Position numbers and translations under genes: made by a program
Origin: Georgenia satyanarayanai
Lineage (GTDB): Bacteria; Actinomycetota; Actinomycetes; Actinomycetales; Actinomycetaceae
Assembly: GCF_900116375.1 (NCBI RefSeq)
Contig: NZ_UETB01000006.1
Span: 1-64,000, forward strand
Direction of reading: 5' to 3'
DNA: 64,000 bases
In this document: piece after piece, positions 28,942 to 32,166 of the stretch
Layout of the letters: every line of letters begins with the position of its first letter
Position numbering within the stretch: the first letter of the stretch is position 1
The notes under the pieces: model-generated
Told to the model about the DNA's origin: nothing
Seen by the model: the letters and a program-made list of their open reading frames with translations, nothing else
Databases searched by the model: none

Positions 28942-30153
28942 TCAGGACCGGGCGACCTGCTTGAGGAAGCCGCCGAGGTGCCGGGTGACCTGGTCGTGCT
29001 CGATGAGGAACCCGTCGTGGCCGTAGGGCGAGCGCAGGTAGCGGACCGGTCCGGAGCCGGGCACGCCGGCGGCGATGCGCTCCGACTCGTGCGGGAGGAA
29101 CAGGCGGTCGGACTCGACGGCGATGACGAGGACGTCCGCCGTCACCTCCGCCAGCGCGGCCTCGACCCCGCCGCGGTCGCGGCCGACGTCGTGGGTGAGC
29201 ATCGAGCGGGTGAGGGCGAGGTAGCTGTTGGCGTCGAAGCGCTGGGCGAGCTTGGTGCCGTGGTGGTCCAGGTAGGACTGGACCGCGAAGCGACCGCCGA
29301 GCAGCGGTTCCTCGGCGTGCTGAGGGAGACGCCCGAAGCGGCCCTCCAGCTCCTCGGCGCTGCGGTAGGTCGTGTGGGCGATGCGGCGGGCCAGCGCGAG
29401 GCCGGCGTGCGGACCCTGTCCGGGCGGGGCGTCGTAGTAGTCGCCGCCGCGGAAGTTCCCGTCGAGCTCGATCGCGGAGATCTGGGCGTGCGCCCACGCG
29501 ATCTGGTCCGCCGTCGTCTGCGCGCCTGAGGCGATGACCGCCGCCGAGCGGACCCGGGACGGGGCGGTGATGGCCCACTCGAGCACCCGGTGCCCGCCCA
29601 TGGAGGCGCCGACGACGTGCGCCCACTGCCCGATGCCCAGCCGGTCGCTCAGCTCGAGCTCGGCGGCCACCTGGTCGCGGACGGTGACGCTGGGGAAGCG
29701 GCTGCCCCACGGGGTGCCGTCCGGCGCGGGCGAGGACGGCCCGGTGGAGCCCTGGCAGCCGCCCAGGACGTTGACGGCGACGACGAACCAGCGGTCGGTG
29801 TCGATCGCCAGGCCCGGTCCCACGACGGCCGACCACCAGCCGGGGCTGGGGTGGGCCGGGCCGGCCGGACCGGCGACGTGCGCGTCCCCCGTGAGCGCGT
29901 GGCAGATGAGCACCGCGTTGTCGCGGGCCGGGGTGAGCTCGCCCCACGTCTCGTAGGCCAGCGTGACCGCGGGCAGCCGGCCACCGGCCTCGAGGTGGAG
30001 CGAGCCGATGTCGAGGAACTGCCGCTGCCCGGGCCCGTGCTCGGGACGCCAGGCCCCGGTGGCGGGGAGCGCCTCGGAGTCGAGGCGTGCCCGCACGCGG
30101 TGAGCGGTGGCCTGACCGCTCACCGCGTGCGGGCGGCGCTCCTCGGGGGACAC
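28942..30153 (-). CDS. metX: Homoserine O-acetyltransferase
   Basis: MetX acetylates homoserine, the first committed step towards methionine in the direct sulfhydrylation route. The 403-residue product has GGCQGSTGPSS, the nucleophile motif GASMGGHRVLEW and the C-terminal YGHDGFLIEHD carrying the catalytic His, all standard for the family. It starts with GTG only 4 nt after the metY stop, so metY and metX form one transcript in that order. Confidence 0.95.
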   Translation of the reverse strand: MSPEERRPHAVSGQATAHRVRARLDSEALPATGAWRPEHGPGQRQFLDIGSLHLEAGGRLPAVTLAYETWGELTPARDNAVLICHALTGDAHVAGPAGPAHPSPGWWSAVVGPGLAIDTDRWFVVAVNVLGGCQGSTGPSSPAPDGTPWGSRFPSVTVRDQVAAELELSDRLGIGQWAHVVGASMGGHRVLEWAITAPSRVRSAAVIASGAQTTADQIAWAHAQISAIELDGNFRGGDYYDAPPGQGPHAGLALARRIAHTTYRSAEELEGRFGRLPQHAEEPLLGGRFAVQSYLDHHGTKLAQRFDANSYLALTRSMLTHDVGRDRGGVEAALAEVTADVLVIAVESDRLFLPHESERIAAGVPGSGPVRYLRSPYGHDGFLIEHDQVTRHLGGFLKQVARS

Positions 30154-30157
30154 GGTC

Positions 30158-31483
30158 CTACTCGCCCCCGACCGCCGCGGCTGCCTGGGAGACCGCGGCC
30201 GCGGCGCGCAGACCCGTCTGCAGGTCGGCGAGGATGTCGTCGATGTGCTCGAGGCCGACCGCGAGGCGCACGAGGCCCGGGCTCACGCCGGCGGCGGCGA
30301 GGGCGGCCTCGTCGAGCTGGGAGTGGGTCGTGGACGCCGGGTGGATGACGAGGGAGCGGACGTCGCCGATGTTGGCGACGTTGGAGTGCAGCTCGAGGGC
30401 GTCGACGAAGGCGATGCCCGCCTCGTAGCCGCCCGCCAGCTCGAAGGTGAGCACGGCGCCGGCGCCCTTGGGGGCGTAGTGCCGGGCGCGCTCGTGCCAC
30501 GGGGAGGACGGCAGGCCCGCGTAGCCGACCTTGGTCACCTGGTCCTCCTGCTCGAGGAACTCGGCGACGCGCTGGGCGTTGGCCACGTGACGCTCCATGC
30601 GCAGCGAGAGCGTCTCGATGCCCTGGCCGATGAGGAAGGCGTTGAACGGGGAGACGGCCGCGCCGATGTCGCGCAGGAGCTGGACGCGCGCCTTGAGGAT
30701 GAAGGCGGGGGCTCCCAGGTCCTTGTAGACCAGACCGTTGTAGCTCGGGTCGGGGGTGTTGTAGTTCGGGTACTTCTCCGGGTCGGCGGACCAGTCGAAC
30801 CGCCCGCCGTCGACGATGGCGCCGGCGATCGAGGTGCCGTGGCCGCCGAGGTACTTGGTGGCCGAGTGGACGACGATGTCCGCGCCGTGCTCGAGCGGGC
30901 GGATGAGGTAGGGCGTGGCCACCGTGTTGTCCACGACGAGCGGCACGCCGTTCTCGTGGGCGATCCCCGAGACGGTCTCGATGTCGAGGACGTCCTGCTT
31001 GGGGTTGGGGATGGTCTCGGCGAAGAAGAGCTTGGTGTTCGGCTGGACCGCGTCGCGCCAGGCCTGGGGGTCGTCGGGGTCGGTGACGAACGTCGTCGTG
31101 ATCCCGTACTTGGGCAGCGTGTGACGCAGGAGGTTGTAGGTGCCGCCGTAGAGGCTGGGGCTGGCGACGACGTGGTCGCCGGCCTCGGCGATGTTGAGGA
31201 TCGCGAAGGTCTCCGCGGCCTGGCCGGAGGCGACGAGGAGCCCGCCCACGCCACCCTCGAGCGCCGCGATGCGGTCCTCGACCGCGCCCTGGGTCGGGTT
31301 GGTGATGCGGGTGTAGATCGGGCCGAGCTCGGCCAGCGCGAAGCGGTTGGCGGCCTGCTCGGCACTGTCGAAGACGTAGGAGGTGGTCTGGTAGATCGGC
31401 AGGGCGCGCGCACCGGTGGCGGGGTCGGGCTGCTGGCCCGCGTGGATCTGCTTGGTCTCGAAGGACCAGGTGGACTCGGTCAT
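30158..31483 (-). CDS. metY: O-acetylhomoserine aminocarboxypropyltransferase (sulfhydrylase)
   Basis: MetY converts O-acetylhomoserine and sulfide into homocysteine using PLP. The 441-residue product has the Cys/Met-metabolism PLP fold, with [10 protein letters not shown] holding the Schiff-base lysine and the region [13 protein letters not shown] typical of MetY. GGAG lies 8 nt before the ATG. A leader of roughly 150 nt precedes it, holding a tiny Met/Cys reading frame, and metX follows. Confidence 0.95.
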
Positions 31484-31612
31484 GTCAGTTCTCCAGGGTG
31501 TGGGGGAGCGGGGGCGAGCCGGCTCCCTGCCGTCACGCCGGTCCCGCGGAGGGGGCGGTGGCGCACGGGGGCCTGGCGCCGGGGGCGGCGGGCATGGCAA
31601 CGGTGCGCGGTG
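31484..31612 (-). promoter_or_regulatory. GC-rich metY leader RNA with possible hairpins
   Basis: Between the mini reading frame and metY the RNA can form GGGAGC with GCTCCC (31522-31527 and 31504-31509), just before the metY ribosome binding site, and GCGCAC with GTGCGC (31603-31608 and 31561-31566). Attenuation controlled by translation of the leader peptide is an inference. Confidence 0.4.
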
Positions 31613-31636
31613 TCACGTGCACATTCGTCGGCTCAT
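31613..31636 (-). CDS. Leader peptide of metY-metX, MSRRMCT
   Basis: Seven codons and a TGA stop lie exactly 7 nt after a TAGGCT -10 box, so the RNA probably begins at this ATG and the frame is read leaderless. It contains two Met codons and one Cys codon in front of a methionine-synthesis operon. Cysteine-sensing leader peptides are known in mycobacteria; this one is not a polycysteine type and I do not recognise it. Confidence 0.5.
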   Translation of the reverse strand: MSRRMCT

Positions 31637-31643
31637 GCTGGGG

Positions 31644-31672
31644 AGCCTAGGAAGGCCCGGAGCGGCTGAGAA
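31644..31672 (-). promoter_or_regulatory. Promoter of the metY leader
   Basis: TTCTCA (31667-31672) and TAGGCT (31644-31649) are spaced by 17 nt on the minus strand, a good match in geometry to a housekeeping promoter. Confidence 0.55.
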
Positions 31673-31756
31673 GGGGCGTCTCGCGCAGCGGACCCGGGAA
31701 CGCGGCCCGTCCAGCACGTGGACGGAGCTGGACACGGCGGCCCCACCCCTCCCCGC

Positions 31757-31834
31757 CGAGCGCTGAGTTGTTGGCGCCGCGTCCCGGCGAGCGCTGAGTT
31801 GTTGGCGCCGCGTCCCGGCGAGCGCTGAGTTGTT
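31757..31834. repeat. Tandem 31-bp repeats, left half of an inverted array
   Basis: The 16-nt core CGAGCGCTGAGTTGTT occurs at 31757, 31788 and 31819. The first two copies are complete 31-bp units including an identical spacer with GGCGCC; the third is partial and followed by ACGG. The core is the reverse complement of the cores in the right half. It contains the palindrome AGCGCT. No reading frame is conserved through it. Confidence 0.9.
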
Positions 31835-31925
31835 ACGGGGCGGGTGGAAGGTCAGGCGCGGAGGGCTTGTGTCGGAGAGTGCGTGCACAGTTCCTCAGCG
31901 CGTGAAGGGCGTGGGTTCCAGTACC

Positions 31926-32097
31926 GACTCAACGCTCGCGAGGAACAACTCAGCGCTCGCGAGGCTCTGGGATGCGAGGAACAACTCAGCGCTCGCGAGG
32001 CTCTGGGTGCGGTAACAACTCAGCGCTCGCGAGGCTCTGGGGCGGAGTAACAACTCAGCGCTCGCGAGGGTGGGGTGCGGTAACAGCTCAGCGCTCG
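31926..32097. repeat. Right half of the inverted repeat array
   Basis: The core AACAACTCAGCGCTCG occurs at 31944, 31980, 32014 and 32049, with one mismatch at 32082 and a degraded copy at 31926-31938. Most copies continue as CGAGG. Periods are 36, 34, 35 and 33 nt. The spacers are related to each other (CTCTGGG or GTGGGG with TGCGGT), so this is a diverging tandem repeat. Confidence 0.9.
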
Positions 32098-32166
32098 CGA
32101 GGGTGGGGTGCGGTGAGTGGGGCAGGAATGACATGGCTGTGACTCGTGGGACTGGTGTTACGGGTG

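Follow-up and report, generated by a model that had tools for sequence, protein, structure and literature searches.

The window, the whole stretch of 64,000 nucleotides analysed here, carries on its minus strand the methionine biosynthesis genes metY and metX, preceded by a very short reading frame that has a promoter-like sequence immediately upstream (Table 1). Read along the minus strand, the -35-like hexamer is followed after 17 nt by the -10-like hexamer, which is followed after 7 nt by the ATG of the frame (31636); 129 nt separate the stop codon of the frame from the ATG of metY (31483). The promoter-like pair and the seven-codon frame ahead of metY, described in the initial annotation with a gap of about 130 nt, are thus confirmed in the sequence.

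Table 1. Features of the metY-metX leader region, in window coordinates
Feature	Position	Strand	Evidence
-35-like box TTCTCA	31667..31672	-	TTCTC(A/G) shared by L002-L004, L006 and L007 but not by L005; weak by itself
-10-like box TAGGCT, ending 7 nt before the ATG	31644..31649	-	TANNNT at 6-8 nt in 48/62 metY-derived leaders
Putative leaderless leader-peptide frame MSRRMCT-stop (ATG AGC CGA CGA ATG TGC ACG TGA)	31613..31636	-	Sequence; frame kept in relatives
Fixed CGA-AUG codon pair; segment A begins here	31622..31627	-	Arg codon is CGA in 75/75 R-M-x(1-3)-stop matches before metY
Segment B (GCGCAC), able to pair with either A or C	31603..31608	-	Sequence; hexamer counts in leaders
Segment C (GUGCGC), partner of B	31561..31566	-	Downstream in 76/93 leaders with GCGCAC, 11.8 expected
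SD-like GGAG of metY	31494-31491	-	Sequence
metY, bifunctional O-acetylhomoserine/O-acetylserine sulfhydrylase	30158..31483	-	NF005872, 785 bits (cut-off 703)
metX, homoserine O-acetyltransferase	28942..30153	-	NF047917, 516 bits (cut-off 475)

A generic sigma-70 scan gave no promoter at the leader, and the hexamers are far from the Escherichia coli consensus. A promoter at the frame is nevertheless supported by comparison, since in 48 of 62 distinct metY-derived leaders the ATG has a TANNNT box 6-8 nt upstream, an arrangement hardly ever seen at a metY start codon (1 of 151). Eight of the 14 leaders that have no such box lie behind a SAM-IV riboswitch (six confirmed with Rfam, two by sequence motif). 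From this layout we infer a transcription start at the frame and translation of the frame, and the leaderless arrangement is conserved among relatives. The window contains a single match to the core of the frame together with its downstream arm, and 100 shuffled versions contain none. No terminator-like site was found between positions 31440 and 31800. A search of the window against Rfam matched no RNA family, SAM-IV (RF00634) included, which agrees with the earlier remark that no SAM riboswitch motif is evident.

Conservation of the frame and of its CGA-AUG pair

A metY gene is present in 48 of 59 relatives and in 174 of the 198 genomes of the order. Upstream sequence was examined at 153 metY loci (L001-L153), and the metY start codon could be called at 152 of them; L027 has the frame but falls outside the 152 for want of a called start codon, L018 is among them despite having only 19 nt of upstream sequence, and L009 (run-on frame) and L013 (shifted frame) were excluded from the frame count. 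On this basis a short frame with R(CGA)-M close to its stop codon was found in 61 of 152 upstream regions and not in the other 91, a result that we count against the methionine-control interpretation developed below. When 61 metY regions lacking both the frame and a SAM-IV-like motif were searched for other leaderless frames, a single candidate was obtained (L077, MDRRAPR-stop).

Within the genus, the frame is kept in all six genomes (L001-L006) with the peptide MSRRMCT throughout, and the only changes are synonymous (AGC/AGT, CGA/CGT, ACG/ACC). It is found in many further genera of the order, and conservation in close relatives, on which the proposal had been made to depend beforehand, is therefore present. 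The peptides elsewhere include MFRRMCR, MTRRMCR, MSRRMCR, MTCRMCR, MQTRRMCR, MLSRRMCR, MFMRMPN and MTMRMSN, among others, with 58 distinct peptide strings among 120 distinct leaders. In all 47 metY regions that have a TANNNT-N6..8-ATG sequence before the motif, the distance from ATG to CGA is 9, 12 or 15 nt and never out of frame; no frame was imposed on this search, and many of the 47 genomes are related and do not represent independent events. The stop codon at the same place also varies (TGA in 50, TAG in 10 and TAA in one of the 61 distinct frames). On this comparative evidence, the leader frame is probably translated.

With any of the six arginine codons permitted, and a spacing of one to three codons to the stop, a search returned CGA as the arginine codon in 75 of 75 matches (61 distinct frames); in the metY genes CGA accounts for 26 of 1033 arginine codons (2.5%). 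Exactly two codons separate the methionine codon from the stop in 60 of the 61 distinct metY frames. No constraint is seen on the residue that precedes CGA (Arg, Cys, Lys, His, Met and others). Met is followed by Cys in 44 of 61 frames; the other 17 have Pro, Ser, Arg, Phe or His instead. On these counts, the fixed element is the codon pair CGA-AUG at a nearly constant distance from the stop, and Cys is not fixed. The initial annotation had called the frame a Met/Cys leader with two Met codons and a Cys codon and had suggested alignment of the RRMC stretch at codon level. The codon count is correct, and the Met after CGA holds up throughout as part of the conserved R-M; the Cys does not. A methionine sensor is accordingly likelier than a cysteine sensor, because Met is fixed and Cys variable. 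The window frame has only its start and one internal Met codon, after CGA, which is few compared with classical attenuators and is another point against methionine control. A likeness of RRMC to RRNC in the arrest peptide of plant CGS1 is probably fortuitous.

The arginine tRNAs found in the source genome have the anticodons ACG, TCT, CCG and CCT, and no tRNA with anticodon TCG is present among its 47 tRNA matches over the cut-off (one weaker match was left out). CGA would thus be left to the ACG tRNA, because no other arginine tRNA found in the genome can read it. The first base of this anticodon would be edited to inosine (ICG), an established modification. Translation of CGA may be slow, since among the tRNA genes found only this tRNA-Arg can read it. 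In the Salmonella his leader, CGA is described in the available part of the report as causing strong stalling and de-attenuation (PMC4046918).

Genes that follow the leader and related leaders

A scan of about 85,000 species, using a pattern composed of the core and the downstream arm and blind to genes and start codons, gave at least 119 sites in at least 118 stretches. Among the matches listed, 106 sites lie just before metY and one before metX, all of them leaderless (TANNNT 5-8 nt before ATG) and in frame, seven are leaderless sites at contig ends, and five have no leaderless frame (four with no metY or metX following, one at a contig end). The last five apparently represent chance and are unrelated. 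All 107 leaderless sites with a readable downstream gene, among the matches listed, therefore precede metY (106) or metX (1). Two metY leaders, in records labelled as a Proteobacteria MAG (L211) and as Sphaerisporangium cinnabarinum (L175), are almost the same as the leaders of L177 and Cellulosimicrobium L186, which suggests that the two records are mis-binned or mislabelled. A strict version of the core matched twice in 396 genomes of the phylum, both times outside the order and in contexts judged to reflect chance; this pattern misses true variants, the window's own among them, and its result does not amount to a survey of presence.

A covariance model built from 26 leaders, and trained on metY leaders, gave 34 matches with E<1e-7 in the 198 genomes of the order, of which, among the matches listed, 30 lie just before metY, as judged from the mapped metY positions, and four elsewhere. 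These four are leaderless frames (MTRRMRS, MTRRMCP, MTRRMCW and MTRRMRS) before separate metX copies in four genomes; metX was named there from the translated sequence and, at one locus (L270), also by a tblastn match to the metX of the window.

Other occurrences of the codon pair are less readily placed. In the source genome, CGAATG-N6-TGA occurs at five sites and CGAATG-N6-TAA/TAG at none. One of the five is the metY frame and three have no ATG behind a -10-like box; the fifth, L311 (C25:84652-84666), encodes MPSSFRMRS-stop with CGA-AUG and has TAAAGT 5 nt before its ATG, with no methionine gene recognised downstream. L311 could be a second leaderless frame of this genome but is probably chance, leaving the metY frame as the only clear case. 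In three genomes of family f19 (L287, L289 and L293), a frame ending in MCCRMC[RS]-stop with CGA-AUG precedes another kind of gene; for L293, where this was tested, the product has a Trans_reg_C winged-helix domain.

In other members of the order, metY is preceded by SAM-IV (RF00634), confirmed with Rfam in L012, L013, L014, L022, L073, L075, L082 and L101 and assigned by sequence motif only in L015 and L016; in L061 the motif was flagged and Rfam was negative. SAM-IV acts on the same gene and pathway, but it is an RNA aptamer for SAM and is absent from the window. Some loci combine the two elements: SAM-IV is followed by a CGA-AUG frame led by a GGAG-like Shine-Dalgarno sequence, and then by metY, in L014, L022, L073, L075, L082 and L101 (and, by motif, in L015 and L016). 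L013 has SAM-IV with the CGA-AUG motif out of frame.

The initial annotation had not recognised an MSRRMCT-type frame on metY from earlier descriptions. In the literature searched, which covered few subscription papers, no account of the metY/metX form was found, but its core is shared with metL of Streptomyces lividans TK24, from the sole paper found to contain it. The available text of that paper describes metL (SLIV_29928) as a leaderless leader peptide upstream of metNIQ that ends in CRRMCAF-stop, and reports that a typical Rho-independent terminator is missing (PMC8079986). A degenerate pattern search of 15 genomes gave seven metL-like leaders, picked by eye as beginning with CGA and resembling metL. 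The search was repeated without this bias, starting from the MetN protein and allowing all six arginine codons, in all 12 genomes of a Streptomyces-like genus, so called because Streptomyces-metH and Streptomyces-metK RNAs were found with Rfam in six of six genomes searched and the leaders match S. lividans metL. MetN was found in all 12, and in each a frame behind a TTTACT-like box and ending in R-M-x-x-x-stop lies upstream of metN, with CGA as the arginine codon in 12 of 12; the residue after Met is Cys in eight and Arg in four. The Streptomyces-metH (RF03076) and Streptomyces-metK (RF03063) RNAs were also considered as hidden versions of the leader and rejected, as both are present in the six genomes and the short CGAATG frame occurs at none of the 12 loci.

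The leaders of metL type and the window frame thus have in common a leaderless frame, R(CGA)-M near the stop and a methionine gene as target. They differ in length, the matching leaders having about 28-38 codons and the metY frames mostly 7-9, and in context, metL lying before the transport genes metNIQ with three codons from Met to stop and the window frame before metY-metX. Neither the CGA constraint nor a pairing switch of the kind described below is mentioned for metL in the available part of the report (PMC8079986). A 2005 survey of RNA regulation in actinobacteria, as far as its text was available, reports no conserved structure upstream of methionine operons (PMC1262725).

Predicted base pairing downstream of the frame

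Segment B, usually GCGCACGUUCG, lies just past the stop codon. It is complementary both to segment A (CGAAUGUG), which forms the end of the frame, and to segment C (CGUGCGC), the core of which lies 9 to 125 nt downstream of the start of B. Among 93 leaders with GCGCAC within 30 nt of the stop, GUGCGC is present in 76, where dinucleotide shuffles predict 11.8; the metY-derived subset gives 30 of 35, compared with 4.1 expected. Control hexamers of like composition occur in 16 to 37 leaders, with the exception of CGTGCG (75), which overlaps C. The metY-derived set (L001-L153) is free of selection for A and B, whereas loci L156-L273 were picked by a pattern containing A and most of B, which makes A:B statistics drawn from them circular.

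Each A:B pair is retained by 23-26 of the 26 leaders in the alignment, and none of the eight pairs shows a compensatory change. For B:C there are three clear two-sided changes (L007, L044 and L096); variant B segments find their own full complement in 4 of 17 cases, compared with 10% in swaps, and the longest B:C helix, taken leader by leader, reaches p<=0.05 in 4 of 48. Predicted duplex energies in many leaders are around -15 kcal/mol for A:B and around -16 kcal/mol for B:C. The A:B duplex of the window is predicted to be weak (-7.7 kcal/mol, compared with -14.0 in L005), which again counts against control by methionine through this pairing, and the total folding energy of the window leader is ordinary relative to shuffles (z -0.26); the unconstrained fold keeps B:C. 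In frames that lie behind SAM-IV or have no -10 box, A:B pairing is absent on average (mean z -0.01, n=14). Overall there is no support for a further hairpin, C:D (mean z -0.49; p<=0.05 in 6 of 76); in Demequina, inspection by eye shows that C could pair with a neighbouring GGGCGC. The ordinary folding energy, the missing A:B pairing in these frames and the unsupported C:D hairpin speak against a full attenuator, as do the scarcity of compensatory changes, the rarely significant B:C helices of single leaders and the failure to find a terminator-like site.

The initial annotation had placed the relevant folding near the metY ribosome-binding site. Sequestration of the Shine-Dalgarno sequence was rejected, as its mean predicted accessibility over 106 leaders shows no clear change (0.25 in the free leader and 0.29 with a stalled ribosome). 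In these predictions, the standout feature of the RNA is the pairing choice just after the frame rather than folding at the metY ribosome-binding site.

Possible mechanism and alternatives

The combination of a conserved leaderless frame with methionine genes leads us to propose that the leader peptide lets methionine supply control metY-metX through a ribosome-controlled, attenuator-like mechanism, to which we assign a probability of about 0.55. Transcription would start at or next to the ATG, and a 70S ribosome would load onto the 5' end of the RNA and reach CGA-AUG. If CGA is read slowly, the next step, entry of Met-tRNA at AUG, would hold the ribosome when charged Met-tRNA is short. While the ribosome waits, CGA would occupy the P site and the stretch from A to the stop codon would be masked; B (GCGCACG) could then pair with C (CGUGCGC), which would allow expression of the operon. 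When methionine is plentiful, the ribosome would finish two codons later and leave, A would retake B, C would be open and transcription would stop early. This early stop would most likely involve Rho acting in the C-rich untranslated leader, because no intrinsic terminator was found. The ligand and the direction of the response are inferred from the target genes, and the stall and the termination step are likewise putative.

Classical attenuators, such as the trp, his and leu leaders, consist of a short translated leader with codons for the pathway product and alternative RNA pairings. The window leader resembles them in having a short frame in the leader of a biosynthetic operon, with a product codon and possible alternative pairings. 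It differs in being leaderless, in placing one to a few Met codons next to a fixed rare arginine codon, and in having no intrinsic terminator that could be found. The metY/metX leader thus shares its core with metL and, with somewhat better than even odds, works like an amino-acid leader. What sets it apart is the gene it precedes, its size, its fixed CGA-AUG pair and the fact that no intrinsic terminator was found.

Several other explanations were weighed. The nascent chain itself might arrest the ribosome, with the R-M-x-x end at the stop codon, perhaps together with Met or SAM as co-effector, blocking termination and the parked ribosome setting the fate of the leader in the manner of TnaC. 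This would fit the nearly fixed distance from R-M to the stop (60 of 61 metY frames; three codons in 12 of 12 metN leaders) in frames of varying N-terminal length, and the retention of R-M in frames that have no A:B hairpin. However, reading at the level of amino acids leaves the constant CGA unexplained, the L009 frame continues for eight more codons, and peptides this short (5-9 residues) hardly reach into the exit tunnel, and we regard arrest of this kind as unlikely. Less likely still is a frame that senses no amino acid and serves chiefly to bring ribosomes to the 5' end of the leader or to shield that end. Such a frame would not keep CGA-AUG and the two-codon spacing, nor would it explain the tie to methionine genes seen at the readable leaderless sites among the matches listed, although no terminator was found and leaderless short frames are common in mycobacteria according to the available text of one study (PMC4633059).

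The same source describes Cys-rich leaderless upstream frames before sulfur genes in mycobacteria and proposes amino-acid-dependent attenuation for them (PMC4633059). The window frame has in common with these that it is short, leaderless and placed before sulfur genes, and a cysteine-responsive leader would be in keeping with the frequent Cys after Met in metY frames and metN leaders (44 of 61 and 8 of 12) and with the annotation of metY as able to use O-acetylserine. The mycobacterial frames, as far as described there, have clustered Cys codons, whereas here there is no run of them but a single Cys that is replaced in 17 of 61 metY frames and in 4 of 12 metN leaders, with Met fixed; the other targets, metX and metN, serve methionine biosynthesis and uptake. 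A response to cysteine is therefore improbable. Least credible is the idea that the functional element is a structured RNA, for instance a new riboswitch, and that the reading frame is an accident: the strong nucleotide conservation of A, B and C is what such an element would show, but the in-frame spacing (47 of 47), the synonymous variation, the alternative stop codons and the Shine-Dalgarno-led versions that have no hairpin all speak against it, as does the lack of an Rfam match at E<=1 in eight of ten leaders searched, those lacking SAM-IV.

Returning to methionine-controlled attenuation, a more specific version can be put forward tentatively, and we hold it to be rather less probable than the general one. 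Strained inosine-adenine pairing at CGA might slow acceptance of Met-tRNA such that one Met codon suffices, making CGA-AUG a methionine gauge. The same module might be common to metY and metX in Actinomycetales, to metN in Streptomyces and possibly to a winged-helix regulator in a different family within the order, and in some lineages be stacked behind SAM-IV, with charged Met-tRNA and SAM sensed in series. If methionine control is correct, this would be a widespread methionine leader of metY and metX that is undescribed as far as the literature searched shows. The pairing of a rare codon with a regulatory codon would offer a concrete case for asking whether a neighbour can make a single codon into a sensor, and the loci with a SAM riboswitch and a leader frame in series would be natural cases for telling SAM from charged Met-tRNA as signals. 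Frames this short are easily overlooked by gene callers.

Two further features lie upstream of the leader. GTCTC/GAGAC half-sites are present at 31678-31682 (minus strand) and at the same place in relatives, in some genomes as GTCTC-N7-GAGAC, and in many metY promoters they sit 45-60 nt upstream of the frame ATG; GTCTC or GAGAC occurs within 90 nt in 29 of 48 leaders, compared with 6 of 48 in a control stretch. They are possibly an operator over the metY promoter. Beyond them, from about 31760 to 32100, the intergenic DNA ahead of the metY promoter is filled with AACAACTCAGCGCTCGC-like repeats, which are present in many copies facing in opposite directions, on both strands.
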